Source: Microglena sp. YARC
Lineage: Eukaryota; Chlorophyta; Chlorophyceae; Chlamydomonadales; Chlamydomonadaceae
Length of the DNA stretch: 64,000 nucleotides
Direction: 5' to 3'
Assembly: GCA_022414725.1 (NCBI GenBank)
Contig: CM039462.1
Coordinates: 76,010,515-76,074,514, forward strand
Part shown: positions 181 to 55,904 of the stretch, in pieces
Position numbering within the stretch: position 1 is the stretch's first letter
Layout of the letters: the number at the start of each line of letters is the position of its first letter
Translations under genes and position numbers: made by a program
The notes under the pieces: model-generated
What the model was told of the DNA's origin: nothing
Databases searched by the model: none
What the model saw: the letters and a program-made list of their open reading frames with translations, nothing else

Positions 181-498
181 CTACCATGGGTGTGCCAACA
201 GTGCACCGGCATCCGGCCGCATCATGGGGTCCTTCTGCAGCGCTTGCTGTACAAAGTCCTTCATCTGATCTGTCACACTTTCCGGGAGGCAAATATTATT
301 GCTGTGCATGATGTGTGATGCAGTCTGCTTCTCATCCTCCACCTCAAAGGGGGTCTTGCCACACACAAGCTCGTATGCTAGCACACCCACGGCCCAAATG
401 TCGACCTTGGTGTTGTATGGCTTGACGCCCCTGGACTCAAGGAGGGGCATGCTGATAGATGGGCACTCATGCAGATCGCAGTGAGGGTTCTTCAGAAC
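181..498 (-). CDS. Kinase exon 6 (C-lobe, subdomains IX-XI)
   Basis: Acceptor TACTTTTGTAG; reads VLKNPHCDLHECPS, then VDIWAVGVLAYELVCGKTPF, and ends at LLAHPW, the usual end of a kinase domain. TAG at 183-181 may be the stop. UGUAA-type motifs follow on the minus strand within the first 90 bases, which fits an algal polyadenylation signal. Alternatively CATG/GTAGGG is a donor splitting the Trp codon. Confidence 0.8.
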   Translation of the reverse strand, partial: VLKNPHCDLHECPSISMPLLESRGVKPYNTKVDIWAVGVLAYELVCGKTPFEVEDEKQTASHIMHSNNICLPESVTDQMKDFVQQALQKDPMMRPDAGALLAHPW

Positions 499-3437
499 CT
501 ACAAAAGTAAAGTAGGTGTTAGGAAATGCGAACACCCCATAAAGATGAAATATGTGAAGTTTGGTGCATTGTGACAAACCCAGCACTTTCACTTTGATCA
601 GAACTGTGTTGGGCGTTTAAATATGATCAGATGTGGTATATGAAAAGGCTGACATGTTGATTACAACCTGATTCGAAGATCACAGTGAGGGTTCTCCAGG
701 ACCTGATGAGGAAAAGGAAAAGAGCACTTGAGCAACTTCAGTCACTTTAATAAAAGTAAATCAACTCTTAAGCAACTAAACTCACTTTAATAAAAGTGAA
801 TGAGCACTTGAGTAACTAAAGTAACGTTCACAAAAGTAAATGAGCACTTGAGTAAATCAAGTAACTCTCACAAAAGCTAATGAGCACTTGAGCAACTTAA
901 GTCACTTTAATAAAAGTGAATGAGCACTTGAGTAACTTGAGTAACGTTCACAAAAATAAATGAGCACTTGAGTAACTTCCGTAACATTCACAAAAGTAAA
1001 TGACTAAATGAGCACTTGAGTAACTTTAGTAACATTCACAAAGTAAATGACTAAATGAGCACTTGAGTAACTTTAGTAACATTCACAAAGTAAATGACTA
1101 AATGAGCACTTGAGTAACTTTAGTAGCGTTCACAAAAGTAAATGAGCACTTGAGTAAATTTAGTAACTTTCACAAAAGTAACTGAGCACTTGAGTAAAAT
1201 TAGTAACTTTCACAAAAGTAAGTGAACAAACATTCAATCTATGTATGTGTGTATGTGTTTGCCCTGTCTTCCTGTTCTTTCATCATTCAAATGTCTCTTT
1301 ATGCTGGTACGCCATGGACAGACAGACAGACAGACAAACAAACAAAGAAACAAACAAACAGAAAAAAGGACAACAAGGTGACTCTGGGGGCTGGGGGCTG
1401 CTGACTCTGGGGGCCCACTTGACAAACCTACCTAGATGCACCATATATCCAAACCCTACACATGCACCATGGCTCCAAACCACAGCTTACCTCTGGAGCC
1501 ATATAGTCCAGGGTTCCTGCTCGATTGAAAGCCAGCTCCTTCGTGTGATCAATGGCCAATCCAAAGTCGCCCAATTTTAATGTCCCATGACGGCTGAGAA
1601 AGATGTTTTCGGGCTTCACATCTCGGTGTATGATGTTCATGGCATGGCACCGCATGAGCACATATAGGAGAGGGGTGATGACCTGAAGTGTGAGAGCAGC
1701 TGCACGTGAGCCCTACCGCAAGAATGCTTTGATTCAAATTTATTACGTTGCTGCCAAAGACGGCAAGCAGCCTTAAAGGCTGGAGCCATGCAACCAAATT
1801 CAAGTTCAAATTAATGCGTAGCACAAGCTGGTGCTTGATTGATGACCCAAGTCAGGCTGCAACCTACCCAGGTTGGTAAACAGGTGTTTAGGGTGTTAAA
1901 CACCTGTTTATTTACATTATTGGTTAAACATGTAGCTGTTGAACAGGTATTTAGGGTGTTAAACACCTGTTTATTTACATTATTGGTAAAACATGTAGCT
2001 GTTGAACAGGTGTTTAGGGTGTTAAACACCTGTTTATTTACATTATCGGTTAAACATGTAGCTGTTGAACAGGTGTTTAGGGTGTTAAACACCTGTTTAT
2101 TTACATTATTGGTTAAACATGTAGCTGTTGAACAGGTGTTTAGGGTGTTAAACACCTGTTTATTTACATTATTGGTTAAACATGTAGCTGTTGAACAGGT
2201 GTTTAGGGTGTTAAACACCTGTTTATTTACATTATTGGTTAAACATGTAGCTGTTGAACAGGTGTTTAGGGTGTTAAACACCTGTTTATTTACATTATTG
2301 GTTAAACATGTAGCTGTTGAACAGGTGTTTAGGGTGTTAAACACCTGTTTATTTACATTATTGGTTAACCAAGTAGCTGTTGAACAGGTGTTTAGGGTGT
2401 TATACACCTGTTTATTTACATTATTGGTTAAACATGTAGCTGTTGAACAGGTGTTTAACACCCTGGACACCTGTTAAACAACCTGAACAGGTGCAGGCTG
2501 CCATAGGGTGAGTGGTGGGGGCTTGTCCCTCTGTGTATGATATCCATTGCCTGGCACCGCTTGAGCACGCAGAGGACAGTTTTTTAATTTACAGCTACGA
2601 GTAGCAGCTTCTAGGTAGCTCCCCTGACTAGCTATTCAGCCAAACTTGGCACAAACTTGAGCACTTTGAAGCTGACATAATCAGCTTTCCAGAACTGCTG
2701 AAATAGTTCCGTGTAGCCAAGTGGTCGACTCAGGGAGCTGCCTAGAAGGTGCTATAAAAGACGAAAATAAAACTTGGGTAGAGGAGAGGGGCGGTGACAT
2801 GAGGAGGGGAAGCAGCAGTGTGTGAGTCGTCTTACCACACTAGGCTGCACAGAACAGGGGGCATTTAAGAAGTTTTTAGTACCTATGGTAGTTTTTGTTT
2901 TTGGCGGGGCCCCACCTTCTGGGGGGCGGGAGCCCCCAGTGTTACCCATTTGTCCGTCCGACCATCCATCCAACCATCCATCTGACCGTGATGAAGCCCG
3001 ACACGTCAGCCAACGGCCTCGTAACCAACTCGCTTCCGTTGCCACCTGTCGCTCCCTCGCGATCACTCTCCGCCATTTTTTAGCGTCGCAGGCGACGCTG
3101 CATCGAACTTGTGTTATGTGTCTTAACCTCCCCCCATCCCCACCCCACCCCACCCAAGAGGCCCATACCTCCTTCACCAATTAAAATTAGGAGGTCAAAG
3201 TAGGATTTATAGTGATCCTAATTTCGCATTAGGTGGCACAGCTCACCATGTTTTTCCTGCTTCTTGAAATGCATGTTACAGTCCAGGGGTAGCCAAGCAC
3301 ACTCGAGGCCCTCAGAGTTTTGTATTTAATATTTCTGCATGCCAGTTTCAGTAGCTACTTGGGCTAGTCAAGCCTGATTTCAGGATTGTTGCATAGCTAT
3401 CGCATGGCAGAGCGCAAAGCGCGGAGACCGGGGGGGT

Positions 3438-3481
<44 letters not shown>

Positions 3482-5422
3482 CATGCACACATACAAGGGA
3501 ACCTACCTTCATGCATGCATACATGCACACATACAAGGGAACCTACCTTCATGCATGCATACATGCACACATATAAGGGAACCTACCTTCATGCATGCAT
3601 ACATGCACACATACAAGGGAACCTACCTTCATGCATGCATACATGCACACATACAAGGGAACCTACCTTCATGCATGCATACATGCACACATACAAGGGA
3701 ACCTACCGTCATGCATGCATACATGCATACATACAAGGGAACCTACCTTCATGCGTGCATACATGCACACATACAAGGGAACCCACCTGCATGCATACAT
3801 ACATGCATGCATACAAGGGAACCTACCTTCATGCATGCATACATACAAGGGAACCTACCTTCATGCATGCATACATGCATACATACAGGGGAGCCTACCT
3901 TCATGCATACACTGAATTCATCCAGAGTGCCACCATGCTTCAGCGTGTGCTTGAACAGGTCTCCTCCTTCACAGCATTCCATCACCAAGTACAGGTTCGT
4001 CTCATCTGCCAAACACAAATGCAGATCTGTAACCAGGGGCCCCCTCATCAACACCATCGTATCCACCTGCAGTGTTGGGGTGGTGGTTATTGGTGTGTTG
4101 GTGTTGGTATGTAGGTCTGTAGGTGTTGGTGTTGGTGTTGGTGTGTAGGCCTGTAGGTGTTGGTGTTGGTGTTGGTGTGTAGGCCTGTAGGTGTTGGTGT
4201 TGGTGTTGGTGTGTTGGGTGGTGGCATTGGGGTGGTGGTGGTTGGGGTGGTGGGTGGTTGTGATGCAATACATATTACTTACTTTTTGTCAAGATGGTTA
4301 CAGCTATTGTGGAAAGCAGATTCCTTTTAGTATATTTATATGCTCTTGGCCTTTTAGTATATTTATATGCCCCTGGCCTTTTAGTATATTCATATGCCCT
4401 TGGCCTTTTGATCAATCAGTCTATCTGTCCATCCGTCTGAAGGTCCAAGTCCAAGTCCAAGTTCGAGTTCAAGCTCAGGTTCAAGTTCGAGTTCAAGCTC
4501 AGGATCAAGTTCGAGTTCAAGCTCATGTTCAAGTTCGAGTTCAAGTCCAAGTCCAAGTCCAAGTTCGAGTTCAAGCTCAGGTTCAAGTTCGAGTTCAAGC
4601 TCATGTTCAAGTTCGAGTTCAAGTCCAAGTCCAAGTCCAAGTTCGAGTTCAAGCTCAGGTTCAAGTTCGAGTTCAAGCTCAGGTTCAAGTTCGAGTTCAA
4701 GCTCAGGTTCAAGTTCGAGTTCAAGCTCAGGTTCAAGTTCGAATTCAAGCTCAGGTTCAATTTCGAGTTCAAGTCCAAGTCCAAGTTCGAGTTCAAGCTC
4801 AGGTTCAAGTTCAAGCTCAAGCTCAGGTTCAAGATTGAGTCCAACTACAGCCCAAGGCCATGTAAGACCCACCTCTCTTTGAAGCTTCTCGAAATGTTTG
4901 GAAGTCATCTTCTCTTTGTGGTAGCACTTGATCACCACAGGAGTGCCAGTGCTGAGATCAACAGCTTGGTACACAGTGGAAATTCTGTCATGGGGGGAAG
5001 GGTAGGGGACGAGTGTATGTGTGTATTTGGAGGGTGGGGGTGGGTAAAGGGTATTGTAGCCGGCAATGTGAAAGTGTACGTTGTTGTATATCACTCAGCC
5101 TTGCCCTGTCCTATCCTGGTCCTGGTGAGGTAGTCTTGGCAGGGTAGCACTTGATTACAACAGGAGTGTCGGTTGTAAGATCAAACAGCTTGGTACACAG
5201 TGGGAACTCTGTCAAGGGGGGAGGGAGGACAAGAGTATTGTAGTCGGGCATGTGAAGGTGCGCGTTGATGCATAATCCTATACTTCTCACTCATGCCCTG
5301 TTCTAGTCCTGGTGCTGGGGGGGGGGGGGGGAGGTAAAGGGTATTGTAGTCGGGCATGTGAAGGTGCGCGTTGATGCATAATCCTATACTTCTCACTTAT
5401 GCCCTGTTCTAGTCCTGGTGCT

Positions 5423-5456
<34 letters not shown>

Positions 5457-5855
5457 GGTAAAGGGTATTGTAGTCGGGCATGTGAAGGTGTGCTTTGTTG
5501 TATATCACTCAGTCATGCCCTGTTCTAGTCCTGGTGCTGGGGGGGGGTGGGGGTGGGGGTGGGGAGGTAAAGGGTATTGTAGTCGGGCATGTGAAGGTGT
5601 GCTTTGTTGTATATCACTCAGTCATGCCCTGTTCTAGTCCTGGTGCTAGGGGGGGGGGGGGGGGGGGGGTAAAGGGTATTGTAGTCGGGCATGTGAAGGT
5701 GTGCTTTGTTGTATATCACTCAGTCATGCCCTGTTCTAGTCCTGGTGCTGGGGGGGGGGGGGGGGGGAGGGTAAAGGGTATTGTAGTCGGCAATGTGAAG
5801 GTGTGCTTTGTTGTATATCACTCAGTCATGCCCTGTTCTAGTCCTGGTGCTGGGG

Positions 5856-5889
<34 letters not shown>

Positions 5890-6084
5890 AAAGGGTATTG
5901 TAGTCGGCAATGTGAAGGTGTGCTTTGTTGTATATCACTCAGTCATCCTTTGTCCTAGTCCTGGTAATATAGTGATGGCATGGTATTACTTTATCACAAC
6001 AGGAGTGCCAGTGGTGGGATCAACAGCTTGGTACACAGTGGAAATTCTGTCAATGGGGGTAGGGGGTGAGTGTGTGTGTGTGTG

Positions 6085-6115
<31 letters not shown>

Positions 6116-8439
6116 TAAAAGTTATTGTAGTTGGGAAAATGAAGGTGTGGTTTGTTGTATATCACGCATTCATGCTTTATCCTGGTCCTGGTAATATATA
6201 TTATATATATTATCCTGGTAATGTACCGGTAGTGGTGGCAGGGTTCCACCTGATCACAACAGGAGTATGCGTGATGTAATCAACAGCTTGGTAAATAAAT
6301 AAAAAGCTTGGTAAATAAATATACAGTACGCCCTATTACAAGGCTGAGGTTGAGGTTAAGGTTGAGGTTGCCAGCCTGTTTGCTTGCACTGGGGCCAACC
6401 ACCAAATCAACAGCTTGTTGTGTATTGGAAATTATGCAAGGATGGCCGTGGTTATTGAAGTTAGAGGAGTTGAAAGCCTTGTTGATGTGATGGGTATGTA
6501 TGTATGTATGTATGTATGTATGTATGTATGTATGTTACAGTCCAGGGGTAAGCCAAATAGGCTAAATATGGGTGTGTGGTAGGCTAAAGAAAGGCTAGAG
6601 TTGGGTGTCTGGTAGTGATGCTCCCTATGCTTGTACTGCATATTTGTGGTTGTACTGTCAGTTCTCTGATAATGCGTTTGAAAACAAAAACAAAATGAGG
6701 TTTAGGGTTTCTTTGGCGGGGCGTTTTGTTTATACTTTTTTGTTTTCCTACCCAGAAATCCCTCATCACTACATAAAAATAGGCGTAGTTATTTTGAGGC
6801 GCCTACTTGCATATTGATATATCAAGTGCATATTTGTGGTTGTACTGTCAGTCCTTCAATTTCATGTTTGAAAACAATTACTTGAATATTGATATGCTTA
6901 TGTACCCTCAATGCTAATTGAAATCAGCAATGTAGATAGCAAGCAAACAGCCCGAAAGCTAAATCCACAACTTTTTATTTCAAATGTGTCATATGGTTTG
7001 GTTTGGTTTGGTTTGGTTTGGTTTGGTTTGGTTTGGTTTGGTTTGGTTTGGTTCGATTATACAGTCTATCAGGCTGCTCACCGTCTATGGACAGACTAAA
7101 CATGGGTCGTATAAATGCACCACTGCACCACTCTCTAGATTACAGAATGGAGTGATATCAGGTTTTTGTTTCACAGCATCTACACACACACACCCCTCAC
7201 AGTTGTTTTCGTGCGAAGTGTTGCAAATTGAGCAACTCTGTGCAACCCCAGTGCAACGCGCTGCCCCCCAAACCCACGGAGCAGGAAGCGCAGGGCTTGG
7301 GAGGTTGGTTTTTTTTGGCTGGGTGGGTGGGTGGGTGGGTGGGTGGGTGGGTGGGGGGGGCATTTCTGACTAGTTTAGCCAGACCCATGGGTCGCCATGC
7401 AGAATGACAGAATGACAGAATGGCGGCACATCCCACAACAATAAAAAAGTAACTCACCTGCCGCGGTGAAGTTCCACCCGATTACGATATTGCTCGATGT
7501 TCCTTCCCAAGTTGCACGTGCTGGCTCTAGGCTTGGTCTGGTCACCTATCGGACTGGAAGATTGGCTCGACGTGTGATCAGGGTGCACAGATGGTGGGGG
7601 TGGACAGAACGGAGCCCCACGCATGGTTCCAGAGCTGAAGGGGCAGTCGACATAAAGAGATTAGTGTTAGCTTGGATTGGATTGGATTGGATTGGATTGG
7701 ATTGGATTGGATTGGATTGGATTGGATTGTTACATTCTTTTCCAGCCAACTCTGAGCTGCTCAGCGTCTTCCAATTCCAAGTCCCCCCGTGCAATACCCC
7801 ATGTAAACCAGGGAGCATACTAAGCAGATTAGTATTAGCTTGGCAACAAGTAAGAAACATGTTTTAGAAGTAGAATGCATCGATTTGTGCTGTTTCTGCA
7901 CTAGATGGTTTTTTTCACCGCCCCTGATTGAAGGAGTAACCTACATACCACGGGCGTACTGCCGGAAGCATGAAATGGAGGCAGGGGAGTTGTGTAAACC
8001 TAACAGGTTCAGGCACCCCGGAAGCCTGCATCCCATGCCACTTGTCGTTCACCTACACCACACCACACCACACCATGCCACATCGCACCACACCACGCCA
8101 TGCCACACATCACCATGCCAGACCACTACATGCAATCATGCAGAGGGCAGGCATCTCCTAGTTTTGTTGCATCCCTTTAGCTGGATCCCATAGCTTGTCT
8201 TTTCAGGTTCGAGCAGCAGCTTCTAGGCAGCTCCCTGATTCTGTCAGCTTCTAGCTGCACAAGGTTGTTTTAGGTCTGGCTGGGTAGCAAGCCAGTGGAG
8301 CTGCCTAGAAGCTGCTGCTCGAACCTGAAAAGACAAGCTATGCTGGAGCCATATACCCAAGTGCAGAACTGCAGACTCAAGGCAATCGTTTGGTTTGGTT
8401 TGATTGCATGGTTACATGGTTATATGGTTACATGGTTCC

Positions 8440-8471
<32 letters not shown>

Positions 8472-8659
8472 CCTCGTCCCAAAATCGGTCTGTCTCACCC
8501 ATTCAATTTGCACCTTGTCGGTGAAGTAAACGAAGCGGGCTGCAGGGTCCACCCCCGGGTCCACCCACCCACTGAGGGCTGTGGTCTGGGATCATCTACC
8601 TCCATCTCCTTCTCCATCGACATCACACCATCGCCAATTGTGACGAAAGCCACCGCCAT
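181..8659 (-). CDS. Serine/threonine protein kinase, six-exon gene
   Basis: Rebuilt from six minus-strand exons: 8659-8514, 7634-7458, 4984-4873, 4066-3899, 1682-1491 and 498-181. All junctions are GT-AG and in phase, giving about 370 residues if the TAG at 183-181 is the stop. Seen: a poor glycine loop (HRGRISTVY, one Gly), beta-3 lysine in VVIK (about K127), hinge LYLVMECCEGGDLF, catalytic loop HRDVKPEN (D222), DFG (240-242), MAPE and DIWAVGVLAYEL, so the catalytic residues are present. Family knowledge: it phosphorylates Ser/Thr using ATP; the substrate is unknown. The first 100 residues are Ser/Pro-rich and unrecognised. The kinase subfamily is not assigned. The 3' end is uncertain: the TAG after LLAHPW lies in CCATG/GTAGGG, which could instead be a splice donor leading out of the window. 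Introns make up most of the 8.5-kb span and are filled with repeats. Confidence 0.8.
499..1490 (-). repeat. Kinase intron 5: exon-6 decoy and GAGCACTTGAGTAA tandem repeats
   Basis: At 676-705 a near copy of the start of exon 6 (CAGTGAGGGTTCTCCAGGACC) recurs with an acceptor-like end. About 730-1225 holds some ten copies of a 40-55-bp unit with GAGCACTTGAGTAACTTTAG. About 1317-1350 is a GACA/AACA microsatellite. No other gene was seen. Confidence 0.75.
1491..1682 (-). CDS. Kinase exon 5 (catalytic loop, DFG, APE)
   Basis: Acceptor CACACTTCAG, donor CCAGAG/GTAAGC, 192 nt, phase 0. It carries IIHRDVKPENIFL, LKLGDFGLAI and GTLDYMAPE, the core catalytic and activation segments. A decayed partial copy lies at about 2525-2800, split by a MITE. 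Confidence 0.88.
1876..2475. repeat. 63-bp minisatellite, nine copies
   Basis: Nearly identical units of 63 bp contain GTGTTTAGGGTGTTAAACAC, itself partly palindromic, followed by CTGTTTATTTACATTATTGG. Because 63 is a multiple of three and the unit lacks stops in some frames, long open frames appear on both strands. These are a by-product of the repeat. It lies in kinase intron 4. Confidence 0.93.
2525..2830 (-). pseudogene. Decayed copy of kinase exon 5, split by a MITE
   Basis: 2535-2572 matches the catalytic-loop part of exon 5 (GTGTATGATATCCATTGCC beside GTGTATGATGTTCATGGCA), and 2777-2826 matches its 5' end and acceptor. The two halves are separated by the element at about 2578-2777. 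Stops and mismatches make it non-functional. Confidence 0.65.
2578..2777. mobile_element. MITE-1 copy (long inverted repeats)
   Basis: The left end has AGCAGCTTCTAGGTAGCTCC, the right end GGAGCTGCCTAGAAGGTGCT, with TTTTATTTTC-like outer ends. There is no internal coding. It interrupts the duplicated kinase exon copy. AGAGGA on both sides may be the target duplication (tentative). Confidence 0.7.
2870..3110. repeat. Dispersed repeat, GGCGGAGCC family, copy 1
   Basis: Starts near TTTTTGGCGGGGCCCCACC with GGGAGCCCCC, passes through CGTCAGCCAACGGCCTCGTAA and GTTGCCACCTGTCGCTCC, and ends in the hairpin AGCGTCGCAGGCGACGCT. The same layout occurs at 9405-9600 and 40425-40650. Confidence 0.75.
3430..3900 (-). 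repeat. Poly-G run and 38-40-bp minisatellite carrying splice-donor copies
   Basis: A run of about 48 nearly uninterrupted G is followed by some ten units with ACATGCACACATACAAGGGA and ACCTACCTTCATGCATGCAT. On the minus strand each unit reads ATGAAG/GTAGGT, the same context as the functional donor of kinase exon 4 at 3899. This unit is the exon-intron junction, amplified. Confidence 0.85.
3899..4066 (-). CDS. Kinase exon 4 (subdomains IV-V, hinge)
   Basis: Acceptor AACACTGCAG, donor ATGAAG/GTAGGC, 168 nt, phase 0 at both ends. It encodes VDTMVLMRGPLVTDLHLCL and the hinge LYLVMECCEGGDLFK. The donor end is repeated in the minisatellite that follows in the intron. Confidence 0.82.
4075..4855. 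repeat. Kinase intron 3: GTTGGT, 27-bp and GAGTTCAAG tandem repeats
   Basis: 4075-4215 is (GTTGGT)n-like with GTAGGCCTGTAGGTGTTGGT. 4320-4405 holds three copies of a unit with GGCCTTTTAGTATATT. 4437-4850 is a TTCGAGTTCAAGCTCAGG satellite, periods 12/24. Long open frames there (Glu-Leu or Gln-Val repeats) reflect periodicity only. Confidence 0.88.
4873..4984 (-). CDS. Kinase exon 3 (glycine loop and beta-3 lysine)
   Basis: Acceptor CATGACAG, donor AGAGAG/GTGGGT, 112 nt. It encodes ISTVYQAVDLSTGTPVVIK followed by a basic helix ending KLQRE, i.e. kinase subdomains I to III. At least four decayed partial copies lie upstream in the same intron. Confidence 0.85.
5130..6440 (-). pseudogene. Tandem decayed copies of kinase exon 3 with about 115-bp satellite
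   Basis: Partial copies of the glycine-loop exon lie at 5130-5215 (extra T gives a frameshift to TGA), 5980-6052 (reads ISTVYQAVDPTTGTPVVIK then TAA), 6230-6295 and 6400-6440 (fragments). The first two keep the TTGACAG-type acceptor. Between them a unit of about 115 bp with TAAAGGGTATTGTAGTCGG and a poly-G tract of variable length is repeated about seven times. Confidence 0.8.
6490..7457. repeat. Rest of kinase intron 2: simple repeats and dispersed fragments
   Basis: (GTAT)n at 6495-6533; GTTACAGTCCAGGGGTAAGCC repeat-family copy at 6534-6575; (GGTTT)n at 6992-7052; (GGGT)n at 7318-7352. A dispersed repeat at 7350-7410 has CATTTCTGACTAGTTTAGCC, also found near 30180 (inverted) and 45330. No exon was recognised. 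Confidence 0.7.
7458..7634 (-). CDS. Kinase exon 2 (Ser/Pro-rich, leads into glycine loop)
   Basis: The acceptor CCCTTCAG is preceded by branch-site-like CTAAC/CTAAT. The donor is GGCAG/GTGAGT. It encodes a Pro/Ser-rich stretch, then NIEQYRNRVELHRG. The last two bases AG join the A opening exon 3 to give Arg of the loop GRISTVY, which is strong evidence that the two exons are adjacent. Confidence 0.7.
7635..8513. repeat. Kinase intron 1: (GGATT)n, MITE-1 and (AAC)n
   Basis: (GGATT)n at 7672-7730. The phrase AGATTAGTGTTAGCTTGG before exon 2 recurs at 7822-7845, another junction duplication. CACCA-rich repeat at 8050-8125, MITE-1 at 8191-8340 and (AAC)n at 8440-8472. Confidence 0.7.
8191..8340. 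mobile_element. MITE-1 copy with perfect 44-bp inverted repeats
   Basis: 8191-8234 and 8297-8340 are exact reverse complements (TAGCTTGTCTTTTCAGG... in, ...CCTGAAAAGACAAGCTA out) around a 62-bp centre. The RNA or single strand would fold into a long hairpin. The core AGCAGCTTCTAGGCAGCTCC is shared with copies near 2600, 27470, 29430 and 50710. Confidence 0.88.
8514..8659 (-). CDS. Kinase exon 1 (N-terminal, putative)
   Basis: ATG at 8659 opens MAVAFVTIGDG and runs 146 nt to a donor ACAAG/GTGCAA. The two leftover bases (AG) join the C at the start of exon 2 to complete a Ser codon. The region is unrecognised. It was chosen because its phase fits the acceptor of exon 2, so it is the least certain exon. 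Translation could also start at the ATG at 7624 in exon 2. Confidence 0.45.
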
Positions 8660-9404
8660 CTGTGCCGTCTACGCTTCCAGCACCACGTTTCGAAGCGTCT
8701 GTCGTCGCCAAAAGAACGGTACTAGGGTCCGGGTACTGTAGGGTAACGTAGAACGATCGTAGGGCAACGTAGGACAATCGTGGGACGACTGACAGGTATG
8801 GTAGTGATCCTCGCTGGTGAATGTCGGTGTCTGATAATGTGCTGGGAGGCGCAGAAGGCTATGTCTGGTGGCGACGGACGTAGAGACTGTAATGGTGATC
8901 GCCCCCCAGGTTCTTGCAGCACGATGCGGGGTCTGGATTAGACGGTGGGATACCGAAGATGAACGTAGTGGCTGCGGGTAGGTTGCGGTGAGGAACAGGT
9001 ACAAAGTCAAATGTGTCGTTATTTGCAGTAGGCACGCGAGGGGGAAGATGGAGTGAGGTGTGCGGGGAGAGTAGATGGGCAGTTGACGGGTCTGCACTAC
9101 GTGAATTAAACGATGTCAGGGCCGCATGCATGCGCGCATGGGGGCGGGAGAGGTGGGTGGGTGATCAGCGCGGCGGGCCAGGAGTTTGGTGGGCGAAGCG
9201 AGGAATCTGTCAACCTTGGTTACGTAACGCCGGAACCCGATGTTAAGAACCTGTACGAACCTGTACGAAGGTTTCCTCGACCGTGTACACCAAAATTACA
9301 CCCTGCCTTGGTGATGTTTGTCTCGACATGGCTGACCTCGACAGGGACTCAACTCCCCTGCTACTCTCCGCCGAAGCGCTACCTATTCCGGAACCACCCT
9401 TCAC

Positions 9405-9600
9405 TCGTTAATGGCGGAGCCACCCCTTCAAGGGGGCGGGAGCCTGTCTGTCTGGCCGCTGGCCGTCTGACCAAGACGAAGCCTGACACGTCAACCAACG
9501 GTCTCGTAACTAACTCGCTTCCGTTGCCACCTGTCGCTCCGTTGCGAACTCTATCCGCCAATTTTTAGAGTCGCTTTCGACGCTGCAGCATAGAAATTGT
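9405..9600. repeat. Dispersed repeat, GGCGGAGCC family, copy 2
   Basis: Shows ATGGCGGAGCCACCCC, GGGCGGGAGCC, ACGTCAACCAACGGTCTCGT and GTTGCCACCTGTCGCTCC in the same order as at 2870-3110, ending in GAGTCGCTTTCGACGCTGC. Confidence 0.75.
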
Positions 9601-32900: not shown

Positions 32901-33213
32901 GTAAACTTTAGGAGGGTGTATGTAGAAGTGATGCAGGGCTGGTAAACTTGAGATGGATTGGTGCAGCATGTTTGGACCCTGAACCGTGTTGCATGGGGCG
33001 GAGGGGAGGATCACTTCATCAGCCAGGGCTAAAGCACTGCTTCAGTTGTGGAAGGTGGAAGCCTCAGGATCGGAAGAGTCCAGTAGTATTAATGTGGGGC
33101 TTGTAAAATTGAGGTGGGTTGCATTGCTGCCTCATGAACGGTGGCTCACCTTATTTGCTTCTGAAGTGCAGGACCTAATGCCAGATCTGCTCATCCCCCC
33201 CCCCCCCCTCACA

Positions 33214-48101: not shown

Positions 48102-48143
<42 letters not shown>

Positions 48144-51100
48144 TAAGGATCTACATGATCCCCTACTTGTCCCTAAATCTTGCTGCCCCCCATCCCCACC
48201 CCCCTTGACACACTCCCTTTCTCCCCCCTACCCCATTCCACTTAGCCATCTCCACCCTTGCTCAGCGCCTTCTTCTCCCCCCGCTCCCACAGACAGACAC
48301 GTACACCCCTCCACCCTACCTCTTCCCCTTCTTTTCAGCAGCCCCCCACCCTGTATCACACACGCATACCATTCCAACCCACCCCCAGCAAGACCCACAT
48401 CATCCCCAACATTCCCCGACCTCTCCCTGCCCCTTACCCACCCACGCCCACATGAACACAGCCATCCCCACCCAGGGTGGGCCACCCTCGACCCTCCCCT
48501 GAGAACCTGCGAAAGCTTACATAGCTACCCACCCCGCAGAGAAAACTGCACATGCGCGATCGCCAAGCTACATACTTGAGGCTTGTTCTTCGCACTCATT
48601 TGCCCAGTCGGGCCAGTGCACTGGCCAGTGGTGTTGACCAGAAATCCATTTATTACCGCTTGAAGGTATCAAGATTGAGCAAGATTCGCGTAACAGGTGC
48701 AACACCTGCTGCTGTTGGACGGCAATCAAAAGTCGTCGCAAATCCTGTTGCTACTTGCACAAGATGAAGTCGAGGCAGGTCTTCTATAGAGTCACCTCTG
48801 CCACCCGCTCGCTGTCGTACGATGTGCATCAACAGATTTCTCGATGCATTGGGAAGAGGCTGCAGATATCGAATGAACGGTGCAAGGCCGATAACGCTCA
48901 GTGAGAAGGAATGGCCAAGAAGGAATCGAGACAGTCAAAGAAGTGGCCATAGCATTGCAAAGGCCGTACAATGGTGGGGAGAGATGGCACATCCAGTGAG
49001 CATGTGCGAGGCAAATGGTGGCAACGCTCTTGTTTTAGCTGAAAAGGCGCTACTGTTATTTTGATTCATAAGCTTCACGTCTGGTCTGATTAGCAGCATG
49101 GCCTTCATCTTCAGGCCTGGCAGCCTCCCTTGTAGCATGGGCTTCACGCTGGGTCTGGTTGTAAGCCGCGCGCCGCTGTGGGTAAACGGCATTGGCTAAT
49201 CGTCAACACTGGTTTGCATGGCTCCTTTCCTTGCAGTTCTGAAGAGCTCGCCTTGCTCGCTGAGTGGCAGTGGTCGCTACCCTTCCGGCATATACAATTG
49301 GTTGCTGGTGCGGTAACATTGTAGCCTCAAGGAGCAATAGGTTGTAGGCGATCAGCCTGAGCGCCATGTGTGCCATGAGTTCGCGAAGAACCAATCAAAG
49401 TCGAAGGATTGAAATTACTTGAATATTCTGTGAGGCATGATACGGAAGACACGACAGCGAAACAATTGTTGTGGGTGAAAGGTAGGGCTTGGTGGAAAGG
49501 GAACAATGCCGAGAAGCGCAGTGAATGGCAAAGAAGCGGTTGAGAATCGAATGGCGGGTGGCGAAGCTGGGTTGGTAAAGTTTGTGAAGTTAAGTTTGAA
49601 GTAGGTAGTACAAACCTAAAAACATTATATGAATGACAGTTATGATCTGACTGCCAAAGCATGATCTGACATGGTACATCTCTTATTAGTGCACTCTAAA
49701 CAAACAAACAAAACACTGAAACAAACACAAACAACATTATACGTATGGCAGGTATGATCTGAACGCCAAAGCATGAGCTTGCATGGTCATTCTCTTAGAA
49801 ATGCACTAAAAAAACTGAAACAAATCTAAAACAATATTCCAAGTGCGGCAGGTATGATCTGACTGTGGAAACATGAGCTGGACCGGGTGCATCTCTGAGA
49901 ATGCACTAAAAACAAAACAAACACTGAAACACAACATTACATGTGTGGCAGATATGATCCGGCTGCGGAAACTGGAGCTGAAACGGGTACATGCCCGAGA
50001 ATGCACTAAAAATAAAACAAACACTGAAACAAAACATTACATGTGTGGCAGATATGACCCGACTGCGGAAACTGGAGCTGAAACGGGTGCAGATGGTGAA
50101 GAGGCTCCTGGGCCCTCCGCAAATCCCACCACAGGAGCATCTGGGGGCATTGTGTCTAGTATCATGCAGCTCATAAAGAGCAGTGCAGCAAGGCACAAGC
50201 TGGAGTACTACACAAACAGGTATTGCTTGTTGTCATGTCCTTGTCGTACTTCATGTGTACTGCCCTCAACTTCGGCCCTGCATGTATTGCGTATGATGCA
50301 TCATACAACACACAAAAGATATTGCTTGTTGTCATGTCCTTGTCGTACTTCCTTTGTACTGCCCTCACCTTTTGCCCTGCATGTATTGCGTTCGATGCAT
50401 CATACTACACACAAAATATATTGTTTTCTTTCATGCCCTTGTCGTACGTCCTGTGTACTGCCCTGAACTTCGGCCTTGTATTGCGTACGTTGCATCATAC
50501 TACACTAGCAGGTACTGCTTGCGCACTGTTGATCTCGATTGTTCGAGTTTGGGCAAGTCCCTTTAGCTTATTTGGCTACCTTCAGACTATATCACGCATA
50601 CACAGAAGCAGGTATTGCTGCACAATCTAGAGTTGATCCTGATTGTTCAAGGTTTCGGCAGGTCCCTCACAATGCAAAACAACACAACACCAATGCTTTT
50701 ATTTTCAGCTACGGGCAGTAGCTTCTAGGCAGCTCCCCTGACTGGCTATTCAGCCCAACCTGACGTGAGCTAGTGCACCTTGAAGCTGACACAATCCTGG
50801 ACAGGACTGCACAAATAGTTCGGTGAAGCCCTGTGGCTGGCTCGGGGAGCTGCCTAGAAACTGCTTAGAAAATCCGAAAATAAAAGCCCTGCACAACACA
50901 TCACAACACAACACAACACAACAAAAAAACACCACAGCACAACACAGGACAACAGAGCACAGCACAACTCAGCACAGCACAACACAACAGCTCAACAAAA
51001 CACAGCACAACTCAGCACAACACAACGCAGCACAACACAACTCAACACAACAGCACAACACAACACAACACAGCACAACTCAGCACAGCACAGCACAACA

Positions 51101-52561
51101 CAGCACAATCACTTATGAACTTCCGTCCGTCATGTCCCCGCACTCTCTTCAGGCTTATGACCGAGCCGACCAGCCTAACCAACCCAAGCAACCTACCAAC
51201 ACAACCAACCAGTGGTGAACACCCATCACCCATCCATTATGTGCCTGCATCCTCTTCAGGTCCATGGTTCAACTAACCAACCAACCAACCAAACAACCAA
51301 GCAACCAAACTGTGCAACCTACCCATCCGACCCAACCAACCAAACTAACCCAACCAACCCGTTGTCAACACATGTCACCCATCATGCGCCTTCACCCTCT
51401 TAAGTCTCATGGACCAAACAAACAAACAAACAAACAAACAAACAAACAAACAAACAAACAAACAAACAAACATTCAAACAAACAGTGCAACCTACCCATC
51501 CAACCCAAACAACCAGACTAACCCAACCTGCATGTTGTCAATAGCCACCCATCATGCGCCTTCACCCTCTTTAGGTTTATTGTTCAACCAAACAACCAAA
51601 CAACCAAGCAACCAAACAACGAAACTGTGCAAACTACCCATCCAACCCATCCAACCCAAACAACCAAACTAACCCAACCAGCCTGTTGTCAATAGCCATC
51701 CATCATGCGCCTTCACCCTCATCAGGTTCATGGCCCACGAGTGCAATGAGCGCCAGATCAGCGCCTCGCTGTCTCACATGCAAGGGCTCTGTGCCCTACC
51801 CAAGCTTCGCCTCCTCAAAGGAACTGAACGCTCTAGCCAGCTGGGCGCTGAGCTGTCATTAGCGCTATGTCTCACCCTTCCTAACCCCTTTGAGAACCTT
51901 CAAGACGACGACTTCTGGAGCGAGTGGAGGAGCACTATAGTGGAGGCTAAGATGGTTCTGCAGTGCTCATATGTACTAGGCTACAACATGACTGATGCCT
52001 ACTCCAGGAGGTAAGACAATGGTGCCTGCTTCTACTTTTTATTTTATGTTTGAACGCGCGGTGGAGTTCAAGATGGTTATGTAGTGCTCATACGTCCTAG
52101 TCTACAACACGACCGATGCCTACTCCAGGAGGGAAGGAAAGAGTATCTGCTTCTACTTCGTGCTTTTGTGTATGAGTGCGTGGTGGAGTTTAAGATGGTA
52201 CTGTACTGCTCATACGTTCTAGGCTACAACATGGGTGATGCCTACTCCAGGAGGAATGTATGCATGTATGTATGTTCCGACCTTCCCTCTGAGATCGGAA
52301 AAATGGAAATTGTTACGCCTTGCCACAGGGCGTGAGGTTGAAGGAACTTTCCCGTTCTCCCTTGCGTCCGAGATCTTCTATAGCGGTTGTGCTTTCAACT
52401 GCTTTGCTTTGCATTTGCTGCGGTTGTGTAATTCTCATACGTTATATGATACAGCATGACTGCAGCCTACTCCATGCGGTACGTGTGTATAATGATGATG
52501 GTGATGATGATGGTGATTGTGATGTTGATGATGATGATGATGATGACGGTGATGATGATGA

Positions 52562-52613
<52 letters not shown>

Positions 52614-53481
52614 AATGGTGTGGATGTGGGCCCCAAGATCGTGCTACAGTGGTAATTATATTTAAAACAATATGTATGCTATAGATTAACTCTTTGAACA
52701 AGGTGAAACAAATATGAAAGACCTGCCCCCAGAGAAAGAAAATAAAATCTCTGCCTCCACTCGAGTCCTTTTCTTCCCTCCTACCAGGCTTCCACTAGCC
52801 TTTTTTCCTTGCACATTTTTGCAAAACCTGCCTCTATGTTGCATTGTTTTGTATTTCCCTGGTACTGGTACTGCTATGCAGAGCAATCTGCAGAGCAGTG
52901 TTGATCTCCCCTCTGGAGCTACACTACTGCTACTGAACTTGTTACTCGGCTTTGCATGCCTTAGGTACTTGGAGGTGCTACAGGGCAAGCTGCAGAGTAG
53001 CGTTGAGTCCTTGATATCCCCTCCGGAGCGCCTGCCCCATGCATCAAAGCTTCTACCCAAGGTTGATGGAATCCAAGAAGTGGCTGCCCCCTCTGCTACC
53101 CTATACAGGGCTGTTGTTGGTGTCCTATCCAGCACTGCTGGTATGGTGGATACGATGGTGGCCAATGCTCAGGGCGCTGCTGCTATTGCAGGTGGGGCAG
53201 GTGCCAGCTCAGCACGTGGTGGGGCTGCGGGAGTCCAGGCTGGCAGTGACGCTGAGTTGTCAGAGGAGCAGAAACTGGTGTTGATCTTACGACAAGGGAA
53301 ACTGAGTGGTGTCCAAATCCAGCTGCAGCTTTTGTATGTGTGGCTGCTGCTTCGCAATCATAGAGGAACTCTGAAAGCTATCATGGAGGAAGCGAGAAGA
53401 ATGAAGGAGGCAATAGTGCGGGCTGCTAGGGCAGGGCTGTTCACGGACCCCATGACTAGCCCTCCAATCGATACTAAATAG
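26829..53481 (+). CDS. Ankyrin-RBR E3 ubiquitin ligase, Ariadne family (ANKIB1-like), 13 exons
   Basis: Thirteen exons: 26829-26929, 28313-28415, 31160-31419, 33805-34042, 35415-35682, 37767-37912, 39879-39998, 41854-43271, 44849-45164, 45503-45588, 50052-50219, 51726-52010, 52965-53481. All junctions are GT-AG, every phase matches, and the sum is 4026 nt (1341 aa). Domains: ankyrin-like N-terminus (residues about 15-235), UBA-like segment (about 395-430), Ser/Thr/Gly repeat linker (about 500-790), RING1 (from C797), IBR (about 886-942), RING2 with catalytic Cys about 987 in GGCNHM, and Ariadne helices (about 1020-1240). Known for the family: takes ubiquitin from E2 at RING1 and passes it through the RING2 Cys; the Ariadne domain is autoinhibitory. 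Order and N-terminus ([19 protein letters not shown]) resemble animal ANKIB1. Introns are about 85% of the span. Confidence 0.87.
26930..28312. other. Intron 1 of the RBR ligase gene
   Basis: (GGTTG)n at 27010-27060 with a short poly-G run, ACATG-rich imperfect repeats at 27150-27290 and 28030-28140, MITE-1 copies at about 27450-27640 and 27670-27835, and GTCCAAGGGTAGCCAATTAGG repeat-family fragments at 27925-28030. Confidence 0.7.
27450..27640. mobile_element. MITE-1 copy
   Basis: Left end ATCTTTTCAGCTGTGGGCAG with CTAGGCAGCTCC; right end GGAGCTGCCTAGAAGCTGCT followed by AAAAATAAAACC. Internal sequence resembles the other copies (GTGCATTGGG, GTCAGCTTCAAG). A more decayed neighbour lies at about 27670-27835. 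Confidence 0.75.
28313..28415 (+). CDS. RBR ligase exon 2
   Basis: Acceptor CTTGCCTGTAG, donor TCACCA/GTGAGT. It encodes [20 protein letters not shown] and the aromatic-rich [14 protein letters not shown] second copy of its last 65 bases with the same donor lies at 28447-28511. Confidence 0.78.
28560..28858 (-). pseudogene. Minus-strand Glu/Lys/Ala-rich coding-like fragment
   Basis: The minus strand reads about 70 residues including [20 protein letters not shown] and [16 protein letters not shown], helical and strongly charged like a coiled coil, preceded by [17 protein letters not shown] in another frame (frameshift near 28775). No start or splice context was found. Possibly a relic of a host gene or element; function unknown. 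Confidence 0.4.
28863..29275. repeat. 19-20-bp tandem satellite
   Basis: About twenty units of ACTTGGAAATAATGTATATA-like sequence with a higher-order pattern alternating TTGG and TAGG variants. Open frames on both strands are periodic artefacts. Confidence 0.92.
29398..29597. mobile_element. MITE-1 copy
   Basis: Left AGCTTTATTTTCAGCTACAAG with AGCAGCTTCTAGGCAGCTCC; right GGAGCTGCCTAGGAGCTGCT ending GGCTGAAAAAAAAGCC. About 200 bp, no coding. Confidence 0.82.
30786..30925. mobile_element. hAT-like MITE, copy 1
   Basis: Ends CAGGGAACGG ... CTGTCCCTA with internal TGATATCATATTATGCCGGC. Flanks TATATATG and TGTATATG match at seven of eight positions, fitting an 8-bp target duplication. Shorter than copies 2 and 3. 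Confidence 0.7.
31160..31419 (+). CDS. RBR ligase exon 3 (ankyrin-like)
   Basis: Acceptor CCCTGCCAG, donor CTGGAG/GTGGGT. Encodes [20 protein letters not shown] and [18 protein letters not shown], ankyrin-like ([11 protein letters not shown]). The donor choice is supported by several downstream copies that keep GAG/GTGGGT. Confidence 0.78.
31420..33804. repeat. Intron 3 of the RBR ligase gene: amplified exon-3 donor and exon-4 acceptor copies
   Basis: 31495-31620, 32630-32690, 32800-32900 and 32970-33115 are copies of the end of exon 3, several keeping GAG/GTGGGT. 31690-32630 is a 133-bp satellite (TCGTGGAAGGTGGCAGCTGC; GGGGCTAGTCAACTTGAG), about seven near-identical units. 33118-33720 holds four partial copies of the start of exon 4 separated by poly-C and CA/CCA tracts. 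Confidence 0.85.
33805..34042 (+). CDS. RBR ligase exon 4 (ankyrin repeat)
   Basis: Acceptor GTTGACCAG, donor TTGAAG/GTATGA. Encodes [17 protein letters not shown] and [20 protein letters not shown], an ankyrin repeat. Four partial copies of its first 70-90 bases precede it. Confidence 0.82.
34498..34810 (-). repeat. Inverted copy of the 9600-9976 element
   Basis: Starts GTGTCACAAGCGACACGG, then GGCTTTAGCAGTCAC, GTAGCTACTTGTAGCC, GACCGCTGCGATGCTGTTG and GGAGAGAGACACGGGG: the blocks of 9600-9976 in reverse complement and reverse order. Confidence 0.65.
34878..34920. repeat. Interstitial telomere-like CCCTAAA tract
   Basis: A short run of CCCTAAACCC/CCTAAAACC units, the Arabidopsis-type telomere repeat used by many green algae, inside an intron and thus not a chromosome end. 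Confidence 0.7.
35415..35682 (+). CDS. RBR ligase exon 5
   Basis: Acceptor CATGTTACAG, donor TTCAGTAG/GTCAGT (phase 1). Encodes [18 protein letters not shown] and an Ala/Ser-rich tail. The acceptor with the first 30 bases is duplicated at about 35136-35170, and the donor is duplicated at 35870-35885. Confidence 0.75.
35683..37766. other. Intron 5 of the RBR ligase gene
   Basis: CCACACCC-rich tract 35700-35860; exon 5 donor copy 35870-35885; about five units of an 80-bp repeat with GGGCACCCGTTTGTCAAGC at 35930-36330 and again near 36760; hAT-like MITE copy 2 at 36527-36713; poly-G and (GT)n at 36957-37160; poly-C at 37612-37656. Confidence 0.7.
36527..36713. mobile_element. hAT-like MITE, copy 2
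   Basis: TAGGGACCGGCAA ... TTGCCGTTCCCTA, 187 bp, with ATGATATCATATGA palindromes. The 8-bp flanks TACATTAT and TATATCTT match at only five positions, so the target duplication is degenerate or absent. Confidence 0.75.
37767..37912 (+). CDS. RBR ligase exon 6
   Basis: Acceptor TGCGTGCAG, donor GCCAAG/GTAGTG. Encodes [17 protein letters not shown] and [15 protein letters not shown] copy of its last 33 bases plus donor occurs at 37989-38021 after a (TTGGG)n tract. Confidence 0.72.
37913..39878. repeat. Intron 6 of the RBR ligase gene
   Basis: (TTGGG)n at 37935-37986, then an exon 6 end copy at 37989-38021. Half MITE-1 at 38190-38270; 16-bp satellite GCAATTTAGTTTAAAA at 38300-38515; CAGTCCAGGAGTAGG family copy near 38655; imperfect ~115-bp repeats with AACCATAAACCATAAACC at 38890-39190; 30-bp repeats CATTCCCACATGGCAGTACA at 39680-39815. 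Confidence 0.75.
39879..39998 (+). CDS. RBR ligase exon 7 (UBA-like, first half)
   Basis: Acceptor AGCTCCAG, donor GCTGTG/GTAAGA, exactly 40 codons. Encodes [18 protein letters not shown] and [15 protein letters not shown], which continues into exon 8 as HSYDVDAAV: the UBA-like pattern found before RING1 in Ariadne proteins. The last ~50 bases plus donor are repeated five times downstream. Confidence 0.78.
40425..40650. repeat. Dispersed repeat, GGCGGAGCC family, copy 3
   Basis: TTTTTTGGCGGAGCCCCC, GGTGGGAGCCCCC, CGTCAGCCAACTGTCTC and CGCTGCCACCTGTTGTTCC, ending GAGTCGCTTGCGACGCTGCC and TAGGACTTGT. It splits the array of exon-7 copies. Confidence 0.78.
41005..41215 (+). repeat. tRNA-related SINE-like element (tentative)
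   Basis: GGGTTTGAATCCC at 41060-41072 resembles a pol III B box (T arm), and CGAATGGTTCAATGGTTG at about 41014-41032 resembles an A box. The spacing is right for a tRNA-derived head, but no full cloverleaf was found, so it is not called as a tRNA. Confidence 0.3.
41278..41461. mobile_element. hAT-like MITE, copy 3, with perfect 8-bp target duplication
   Basis: TAGGGACTGGCAT ... ATTGCCGTTCCCTA, 184 bp, flanked by CTTATACC on both sides (41270-41277 and 41462-41469). TAGGG-type ends and 8-bp duplications are hallmarks of the hAT superfamily. Non-coding, so it needs a transposase from elsewhere. Confidence 0.9.
41854..43271 (+). CDS. RBR ligase exon 8 (UBA-like end, repeat linker, RING1)
   Basis: The acceptor follows (CAC)n: CACCACAG. 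The donor GCATG/GTGTGT splits a Trp codon. After [12 protein letters not shown] comes a low-complexity linker (42130-42990) of about 10-residue units such as [14 protein letters not shown]1 follows: [21 protein letters not shown] and CRCPHPEC, all zinc ligands present. Confidence 0.87.
42130..42990 (+). repeat. In-frame 30-bp coding repeat in the RBR ligase linker
   Basis: Units of about 30 bp, paired into 60-bp repeats (GGCTCAGCTGCTGACACAGA), encode Ser/Thr/Gly/Asn-rich decapeptides. The frame stays open and leads directly into RING1, so it is a coding microsatellite likely to vary in length. Confidence 0.85.
43272..44848. repeat. Intron 8 of the RBR ligase gene: donor-derived and CCCACC satellites
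   Basis: (GT)n, (GTG)n and poly-G at 43272-43400. 43435-44020 holds a dozen units with ATGCATGGTGTGTGGGGCCA, each repeating the GCATG/GTGTGT context of exon 8's donor, plus CCAATTAGTAATATGTATGC. 44085-44835 is a CACCCTACCCACCCACCAAC satellite with GTACTCACAAACC. Confidence 0.87.
44849..45164 (+). CDS. RBR ligase exon 9 (IBR and start of RING2)
   Basis: Acceptor CCCTACAG, donor CATATG/GTAGGG. Encodes [46 protein letters not shown]. Joined to exon 8 it gives AWCPRPGCG, as expected for Ariadne. Confidence 0.9.
45503..45588 (+). CDS. RBR ligase exon 10 (RING2 end)
   Basis: Acceptor CACCTTCAG, donor CAACAG/GTGGGT. Encodes [20 protein letters not shown] and FYNCN, the conserved Ariadne RING2 tail. 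The leftover AG joins A of exon 11 to form Arg of NCNRYD. Confidence 0.88.
45589..50051. other. Intron 10 of the RBR ligase gene
   Basis: (GGAT)n at 45613-45765; poly-C at 45840-45865; two direct copies (46090-46310, 46320-46500) and one inverted copy (about 47330-47670) of a protein-like segment; a GC-rich element at 46530-46960; poly-C at 48104-48140; unrecognised DNA at 48150-49600; four or more copies of the exon 11 acceptor region at 49630-50000. 45165-45502 (intron 9) holds only a CATTTCTGACTAGTTTAGCC repeat. Confidence 0.65.
46190..47680. pseudogene. Three copies of an unrecognised coding-like segment
   Basis: Plus-strand copy ending near 46500 reads [20 protein letters not shown] then EYAQWV. 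The inverted copy reads [33 protein letters not shown] and, after a [23 protein letters not shown]. Conservation at protein level suggests a relic of an element gene. The family was not recognised. Confidence 0.45.
50052..50219 (+). CDS. RBR ligase exon 11 (linker to Ariadne domain)
   Basis: Acceptor GTGTGGCAG, donor ACAAACAG/GTATTG. Encodes [18 protein letters not shown] and a helix ending [10 protein letters not shown]. At least four acceptor copies precede it between 49630 and 50000. Confidence 0.83.
50220..51725. repeat. Intron 11 of the RBR ligase gene
   Basis: Three units of about 115 bp at 50215-50510 (TATTGCTTGTTGTCATGTCC) begin with the exon 11 end/donor sequence. GTCCAGG-family copy at 50530-50595, MITE-1 at 50692-50890, (CAACA)n-like 50890-51110, and four ~140-bp units with CAACCAACCAA and CATCATGCGCCTTCACCCTC up to the acceptor of exon 12. 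Confidence 0.8.
50692..50890. mobile_element. MITE-1 copy
   Basis: GCTTTTATTTTCAGCTACGG ... CTTCTAGGCAGCTCC, and GGAGCTGCCTAGAAACTGCT ... CGAAAATAAAAGC. About 195 bp, non-coding, no clear target duplication. Confidence 0.82.
51726..52010 (+). CDS. RBR ligase exon 12 (Ariadne domain)
   Basis: Acceptor CTCATCAG, donor CAGGAG/GTAAGA. Encodes [20 protein letters not shown] and [19 protein letters not shown], the helical Ariadne core. Two to three decayed copies of its 3' end follow. Confidence 0.85.
52011..52964. repeat. Intron 12 of the RBR ligase gene: exon-12 end copies and (GAT)n
   Basis: Copies of the last ~75 bases of exon 12 at 52060-52135 and 52180-52255 (CTACTCCAGGAG kept), and a weak one at 52430-52482 with GTACGT. 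(GAT)n at 52485-52618. A decayed copy of the start of exon 13 at about 52855-52925. Confidence 0.83.
52965..53481 (+). CDS. RBR ligase exon 13 (Ariadne C-terminus, stop)
   Basis: Acceptor CATGCCTTAG; begins [20 protein letters not shown] and ends [11 protein letters not shown], then TAG at 53479. Includes an Ala/Gly-rich stretch and a basic helix [20 protein letters not shown]. No TGTAA polyadenylation signal was seen in the next few hundred bases. Confidence 0.82.
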
Positions 53482-55904
53482 ATACTGCATTGCACTGCCA
53501 TGGACAGGCCATAGTCGACCGAAGACAAGCCCACTCCACAGCATCCAGGGGGGTCTTCCAACTATGTAGATGCATGTAGCTTACAGCCATTCAGCGGATC
53601 ATTTGGAAATCGAGGTCCTAGGTCGTACTTCGTACCTCAACTTTTGTATGGCCAGATTACGTCAGTTCTCCGTGAATTGGGATTTCTGGCCAAATCTGAG
53701 GTACAAACTGCGACCAATAATTATTTCGAAAAATCGATTCCCAAATGACTTGAAGTATATACCCTTGCACTACTGCCAGCTACACTACTACCCTCCCCTT
53801 GCACTACAGTGTTGTACTGCTCCTACAGTGTTGCCACAACACTGAACAACACTGTGTTCCTCTTGTCCGCTTGTCACGACTCAGAAGTCTATTCTTTGAT
53901 TGTTTCCCCTTAGCAAGGTTCTATATGCCGGCCATTCGGTGTTTAACCGTCTGCATAATACAATACTTTCCCGCGTGGGATAGCCACGGAAATCAGCCAG
54001 GGAGTGTGGCAGGGTTTGAACTCAGACCGATTATAGACATTCCCAGATCTCTACACCGACCGTTTAATGACTTGCCAAGGTCCCTCTTGACCGCAGTCGG
54101 GTGTGGCACTTGTGAATTAGTCTAAGAGAAGTGGCACTACTGATACTGTACTGCATCAAGTATTTAGGACGGGAAAATCATTTCTGTCTTACTCGTTTGT
54201 CTATGATTTCTCTATCAGGGTACTTCAACAAGTACGCGGCTGTGTGTGAATACGCACACTTCAGAGGGGCTCGTGCATGTGAACACGCACACTTTCACCA
54301 GGATGTGGATGTTAACACGCACATCCCAGCCCCCCTAATATGTGTTGCACCCACATCCCAGACCCCTTAGTTCGTGTTTGTGTGTCACTTTGTGGCAAGT
54401 GCGTAAGATGTAGCCACGCAATGATTGGAATGATTTGAATTACTGCCGTAGCAAGTTCTGTGGACAGTTGAGCCTGGTGAACATTCGAAGCAAAGGTCGG
54501 TCTGAAGTCTGAACCTTAAATCTCGATTTTTGAAATTTACCAGGATTTCACAATCAAGGCTTGAAGATCTCCCGACCAAAGACCATTCTGCGTGGATTGG
54601 TTGATTGATCCAGGATGTCACCGAAGATGAAGCAGACCTTGTTTGATTACTGTGAGTAATTCGCTGATTGAACTTGAACTTGAACTTGGTTGCATAGTGC
54701 CAGCCAGCAATTCGGCTGCTCGCCGTCTTTAACAGTAAAAAAACAAAAAACGAAAAGGCTGATATTTGCTGATTGTCTCATGCAGTTATGCGTCCAGATA
54801 GCCGTCACGCTGTCCATACCTTATATTCCTGCTCTATCAATGCAGTCAAGCCGAAGACTTCCAGCCCACCTGCGCCAACGAAGATGGAGCATCTACCTGC
54901 CCATATCAATGCTTGAACTGCTGGGTCGTTGCCTTCAATTTAAAATAGAAAATTCGAGAAAAATGCTGAAATGTATATGGTAATATGAAAAGCACCCTGA
55001 TGTTACAATTGACTCGCGAATTGTGACTGTGTTAGAAGCAACGTACAGGAATGTCGCCTTGGGGGCGAATAAGAAGTTCCAGGCGATTTACGAGGGGTCA
55101 AGGAAGGTTAAGGTCGCGAAGGCCATACAATGAAAACAAAGTTACACACACATTTTGACAGGGTGGCACACGCACACTCTCAAAGGGTTTCAAAGTACCC
55201 TGGTCCCTATTATTTTCCTCTTTATCCCCGAATCCTCTTAGCCCCAAATCCGGTGTCACCCCTAACAATTAGTGAGGTAGGTAACGTAACTCGTGTCATC
55301 CGTTGTACACTTCAGGCTGATGATTCGTCTGTGACCAGTTCGTCACTAGTGGCAGTTTCATGTAGTAATGTTATTGGTTATTCGAGTCCCTTTGGCCTAG
55401 TAGGCTCCCCAGAAGCTTCTTTACGTGTGACAACTGCTTCGAAATCTCAGAGGAATTATGAAAGTTATTTTGGAGGAAGCGAGAAGAATGAGGGAAGAAA
55501 TAGTTAGGGTTGTTCACCGATCCCATGACTAACACTATGTAATGTTACAGCCCAGAGGGTATCCAATAATCTAAAGGGACCTGCCCAACCTAAACTAATG
55601 AAGATAATTATATACTATCCGGAGGGGCTATTAACAAGCTCTACTGGTGGGGAAAACAGTAAAAAATATGATCCCCTACCTGCGAATCAGAAGGGTGGGA
55701 CGGAAGACCTGAGATCACGTACTCCTCAGATAATTCAATGTAACACTCCAAATGGTACCTAATAGACAATGTCCAATAAACACGTTTTGTTTTGCTGGGG
55801 ATACTCACCGGTGGAGGTGGGCCTGCAATCTTCCAGCTTTTAGAATTGTCACAAGGTTATATTTGACGGGAATTCGGCGTCGAGCCATCTTCAGAATATA
55901 GTAC
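53482..55904. other. Region downstream of the RBR ligase gene
   Basis: No intact gene recognised. 55437-55540 is a decayed copy of the end of exon 13 (GAGGAAGCGAGAAGAATGAGG; CCCATGACTA). GTTACAGCCCAGAGGGTATCC-family copy at 55545-55600. 54230-54350 has short ACACGCACAC repeats. Confidence 0.55.

Follow-up and report, generated by a model that had tools for sequence, protein, structure and literature searches.

Long introns are commonly attributed to transposons. Introns may also carry minisatellites, which are tandem arrays with units of 40-200 bp, and introner elements are dispersed, near-identical intron copies found at unrelated sites. A tandem duplication across an intron-exon boundary is described, in the part of the account drawn on here, for the potato RdRp gene, where a single event produced a new intron (PMC4974935). 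Chlamydomonadalean algae have, according to excerpts of three reports, unusually long introns, with medians of 198-343 bp and means of 516-934 bp (PMC8226300, PMC11228838, PMC11247165), and these excerpts make no mention of copies of exon ends. The subject of the present study is the introns of two unrelated genes of the alga Microglena sp. YARC, encoding an RBR-type ligase with an IBR domain and a kinase. Both genes lie in a window of 64,000 nucleotides (positions 76,010,515 to 76,074,514 of contig CM039462.1), taken from an assembly of 568 Mb in 2390 contigs (GCA_022414725.1). Their introns contain copies of the ends of the adjoining exons, often with the splice site attached.

The introns of these two genes (median 1716 bp, with a median exon of 184.5 bp) are longer than those given in the excerpts for related algae. 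The duplications found here seem to be of the same mutation type as known intron-forming ones, and tolerated for the same reason, because the mRNA is unchanged. In contrast to the single potato event with its new intron, however, many events appear to have occurred, at 19/32 junctions, among both donors and acceptors, and in several genes. No new intron is formed; each copy lies wholly within an old intron, which has seemingly been lengthened, and its sites are apparently unused, as judged from the reading frame. Minisatellite-type arrays with units of tens to a few hundred bases are present, and in this respect the introns resemble known intronic minisatellites, but in about half of the families the unit from which the array arose takes in an exon end.

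Copies of exon ends in the adjoining introns

Fifty purely exonic bases from each of 32 junctions, with the final exon boundaries, were compared with intron sequence, and a score of at least 30 was taken as a match. Half of the exon ends (16/32) matched their own intron. There were no matches to the intron on the opposite side of the same exon (0/28), to other introns (0/480), in antisense orientation (0/32) or to pieces of 11 systematically chosen unrelated stretches (0/1056). When the initial boundaries of the ligase exons L1, L3 and L5 were used, 14/32 junctions outscored all 200 dinucleotide shuffles. The shuffles, together with these controls, exclude chance similarity, and the failure of exon ends to match other introns or unrelated stretches speaks against introner elements. 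Local same-strand copies of exon ends in the adjoining introns are real. The original prediction, which had proposed same-strand copies at independent loci and a similarity above chance, was borne out on both points.

Copies spanning the junction, defined by at least 8 exon and at least 2 intron bases, numbered 34 and occurred at 17/32 junctions (Table 1). At the acceptors of the kinase exon K5 and of L11 the match is confined to the exon part; with these two included, 19/32 junctions have copies. The remaining 13 fell below the thresholds (donors La, L3, L6, L7, L8, K2, K3 and K5; acceptors Lb, L4, L7, L8 and K4), very short sub-threshold copies being visible by eye at the L3 and L6 donors. 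Copies accompany 10 of the 13 ligase exons and four of the five located kinase exons, in agreement with the predicted figures of ten of 13 and at least four of six; the kinase set comprises K2-K6, the most 5' exon not having been located. Over the exon part the copies diverge from their source by 3-25%, and some span all 60 exon bases available in the query. Where one to about ten copies per junction had been predicted, the K4 donor array has about 11 units. The L1 array has about eight units of 133 bp, which, given the frame-consistent end of L1, hold some four exon bases each and are mostly copies of the intron side.

Outside the window a single gene family, MCM, was tried. Its loci were taken from a Pfam search of the same genome, which gave 27 matches; 26 were tested, and one (L024), itself a copy, was excluded. 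The segment ends are Pfam ends rather than exact splice sites. The 5' end matched upstream sequence in 11/26 segments and the 3' end matched downstream sequence in 9/26 (20/52 ends); 15/26 segments and 7/9 loci have at least one match. Crossed sides and antisense gave 0/52 each, and unrelated stretches 1/1716. Stops occur within four of the 26 segments, including L036, whose stretch has masked bases; 16/44 ends match when these four are set aside. Inspection of one locus (L030) by eye revealed an exon at 4491-4712, preceded at 4335 by a copy of the acceptor and exon start and followed by two exon-end copies in which GT has become GC and AT. With copies in both of the unrelated window genes and at 7/9 MCM loci, the phenomenon is no local oddity. 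To this extent the idea of a genome-wide mode gained support, although the scan of all genes by which it was to be checked was replaced by this one family.

The same data bear on two other explanations. The copies could be decayed duplications of whole exons, as in mutually exclusive exons, and the copies that attain 60 exon bases might be seen in this light. Copying of a whole exon with both its sites should, however, leave exon ends on the opposite side as well, and these were not found (0/28 in the window, 0/52 in MCM genes); many units, moreover, adjoin the junction and are shorter than the exon. This origin is very unlikely. An assembly artefact, to which the long homopolymers in some arrays could point, is hardly credible in view of the divergence of the exon parts, the side and strand specificity, the recurrence in MCM genes and the intact coding frames of both genes.

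Local tandem duplication and its probable part in the lengthening of introns

Local self-matches in the window are predominantly direct (316 rows, vs 28 inverted). Local direct duplications make up 44% of the 29,123 intron bases and are present in 15/16 introns; none was found in the first ligase intron (26930-28312). In exons the duplicated fraction fades from 42% of bases at 0-19 bp from the junction to 0/544 at 100-159 bp, a count that leaves out the in-frame array of 30-bp units at 42227-42934 in the coding exon L6, the sole array within an exon. At 8/15 junctions examined, about half, the nearest copy is arranged head to tail with its source (ratio of alignment to distance at least 0.88), and at the other seven it is separated from the junction by intervening sequence. 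Differences between the copies and their source affect all three codon positions (12.8, 10.7 and 17.5%), which favours duplication of this kind.

It is probable, at roughly 0.7, that these introns grow by recurrent local tandem duplication, in units of about 40-280 bp, together with insertions. Selection would eliminate duplications within coding exons, and those internal to introns would be neutral. A duplication straddling a junction would be neutral too, since use of the splice site on the exon side leaves the mRNA unaltered. Such an event would place an additional exon end and donor in the intron, or an additional acceptor and exon start, and repeated events with point decay would give the intron a donor-derived 5' part and an acceptor-derived 3' part. 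Local duplicates make up 44% of the intron DNA of the two genes, and the exon anchors allow the events to be counted and dated.

The original prediction went further and held that introns grew specifically by duplication of junctions. As stated, this found no support: an exon end is part of 17 intron duplication families (15 if the doubtful L7 and the non-spanning K5 families are set aside), 16 are internal, and 12/33 junctions are spanned, vs 43% of random intron points. A modest excess at junctions is nevertheless conceivable. A related explanation is that exon-intron borders, or transcribed genes, are preferred, with breaks linked to splicing or transcription being repaired by local duplication and intron growth beginning at junctions. 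The number of junction families, which lies above that in most coverage-matched simulations, and the duplicated 44% of the introns, set against 0/2955, 0/1329 and 2.6% of 3819 bases in the flanks, are in its favour. Duplications nevertheless cross junctions no more frequently than they cross randomly chosen points in introns, families anchored in an exon stay recognisable for longer, which inflates their count, and growth from short introns yields similar numbers in part of the simulation runs. Duplications were also found in stretches picked without regard to genes: of the 11 systematic, unannotated 10-kb stretches (L038-L048), nine have at least 2% local direct duplication, with a mean of about 31% and a range of 0-80%. 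A preference for borders or transcribed genes appears unlikely.

The simulations applied random tandem duplication with exonic events purged; they used random sequence, a fixed exon length and guessed rates, and set bounds rather than furnish proof. With coverage matched, the mean number of junction families was 14-15 from starting introns of 250 bp without arrays, 10-12 from 120-250 bp with arrays and 4-11 from 600-1200 bp. Less decay and no insertions gave 17-22 from 250-bp introns, with larger shares and a coverage above that observed. On these models, growth from short introns would account for most junction families. An excess of some 1.1-1.8 fold at junctions may be left over, possibly because families anchored in an exon are lost more slowly.

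Several observations weigh against neutral growth by random tandem duplication. At least 17 junction families were reached in 0-10 of 30 coverage-matched runs, chiefly those with short introns at the start, and the observed share of 0.51 in 0-2 of 30, so a simple neutral model would fall a little short of the families found. The flanks outside the putative Copia-like elements (8.1 kb) are nearly free of duplications, with the values given above and none in the kinase 5' flank (7546-10500); this would not be expected of a process at work everywhere, although nine of the 11 systematic stretches do carry duplications. Intron windows of equal length can be just as poor (90/1390, 9/1309 and 0/1266 positions), and within the window the restriction of duplication to introns holds. 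One of 48 50-mers from exon interiors gave a match. In the copies the third codon position is somewhat more altered than the others, as changes on the exon side would produce. A 99-bp coding piece of L11 (53327-53425) recurs at 79.8% in the 3' flank, some 2 kb away (55414-55512).

Splice sites in the copies and the true site

In the junction-spanning copies GT is retained in 15/18 and AG in 15/16, the identity around them being about 87%. The splice dinucleotides are not preferentially lost, 30/34 being kept. When sites were scored with a matrix built from 15 other sites, the true site was strictly better than its own copies at 9/17 junctions, tied at 2/17 and exceeded at 6/17; with the true site best in just nine cases, site strength was rejected as the discriminator. 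Both the retention and the six junctions with an outscoring copy could be taken to mean that the copies are kept for a function, as alternative sites, regulatory decoys or stepping stones for the piecewise removal of long introns. Yet at about 87% identity a retention of 30/34 requires little selection, GT is gone from entire families (L9, L10 and, by eye, an MCM exon), and the copies are truncated and unevenly diverged, which makes retention for function highly improbable.

Seven introns have both donor and acceptor copies, and in every one of them the donor copies are on the 5' side. The copies therefore enclose no pseudo-exon, since within the intron a donor copy never comes after an acceptor copy, and among the available sites each true one lies closest to the opposite end of its exon. 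The ligase frame joins 13 exons across the copies and requires no additional exon between them. Exon definition, in which sites are paired across the exon, predicts such an arrangement where exons are short and introns long. The geometry could thus separate true sites from copies, the exon-proximal site being chosen by pairing across the exon. The more sweeping proposition, that transcription or splicing directs duplication to genes and borders, that intron growth is chiefly driven in this way and that pairing across exons makes splicing ignore the decoys beside about half of the exons, is unlikely. If the rates of 16/32 and 20/52 hold genome-wide, the introns would offer a large natural experiment on the choice of splice sites, in which it is known how similar each competitor is and how far away it lies.

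Gene models and neighbouring features

The ligase product contains an IBR domain according to Pfam. Its exons L9-L11, that is, exons 11-13 of 13, are identical to the EukProt protein P0121, which includes only these final three and begins with residues from the intron bases 50041-50051 preceding exon 11. The annotation of P0121 has split the ligase gene, and a model that misses ten of 13 exons and starts in intron sequence is a caution for annotators. The kinase frame K2-K6 is open as far as the stop and contains Pkinase (Pfam); its relatives are green algal, with identities of 56% to Haematococcus lacustris and 54% to Volvox.

Table 1. Exons of the two genes and copies of exon ends in the window
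Feature	Position	Strand	Remarks
Kinase gene	181-7545	-	
Kinase exons	K2 7458-7545, K3 4873-4984, K4 3899-4066, K5 1491-1682, K6 181-498	-	
RBR-type (IBR domain) ligase gene	26829-53481	+	13 exons, 4017 bases, 1338-residue frame, sole stop terminal
Ligase exons, first part	La 26829-26929, Lb 28313-28415, L1 31160-31353, L2 33805-34042, L3 35415-35682	+	
Ligase exons, middle part	L4 37767-37912, L5 39822-39998, L6 41854-43271, L7 44849-45164, L8 45503-45588	+	
Ligase exons, last part	L9 50052-50219, L10 51726-52010, L11 52965-53481	+	
K6 acceptor and exon start copy	677-704	-	
K5 exon start copy	2530-2579	-	Exon part only
K4 exon end and donor	3480-3911	-	Array of about 11 units of 40 bp
K3 acceptor and exon start copies	5148-5238, 5988-6103, 6247-6293	-	Region 4919-6293; 6247-6293 exon part only; 102-bp array between
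Lb exon end and donor	28448-28540	+	Fresh head-to-tail copy, 92-bp unit, 94.6%
L1 acceptor and exon start copy	30692-30732	+	
L1 exon-end and intron-start copies	31511-33121	+	Including 133-bp array
L2 acceptor and exon start copies	33120-33154, 33274-33370, 33406-33513, 33606-33684	+	33120-33154 exon part only
L2 exon end and donor copy	34258-34321	+	
L3 acceptor and exon start copy	35077-35162	+	
L4 exon end and donor copy	37986-38043	+	
L5 acceptor and exon start	39305-39465	+	Two copies
L5 exon end and donor	40112-40850	+	Four copies
L6 acceptor and exon start copies	41480-41538, 41685-41717	+	41685-41717 exon part only
L9 acceptor and exon start	49619-49991; 49719-49757	+	Three copies; fourth (49719-49757) with 6 exon bases
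L9 exon end	50304-50475	+	Two copies, GT changed to AT in each
L10 acceptor and exon start	51230-51416; 51517-51580	+	Two copies; third (51517-51580) with 6 exon bases
L10 exon end	52072-52481	+	Three copies, first two without GT
L11 exon start	52871-52904	+	Weak copy, exon part only; position derived from intron offset

An Rfam search of the window gave no match, and no relative was found among viral contigs. Putative Copia-like retroelements, read from the frames alone with no family search made, lie at about 10.9-16.7, 19-25 and 57.6-63.8 kb. Immediately past the stop codon of the kinase, at 5-175, there is a tandem repeat of 72 bp in 2.4 copies with 94% identity.

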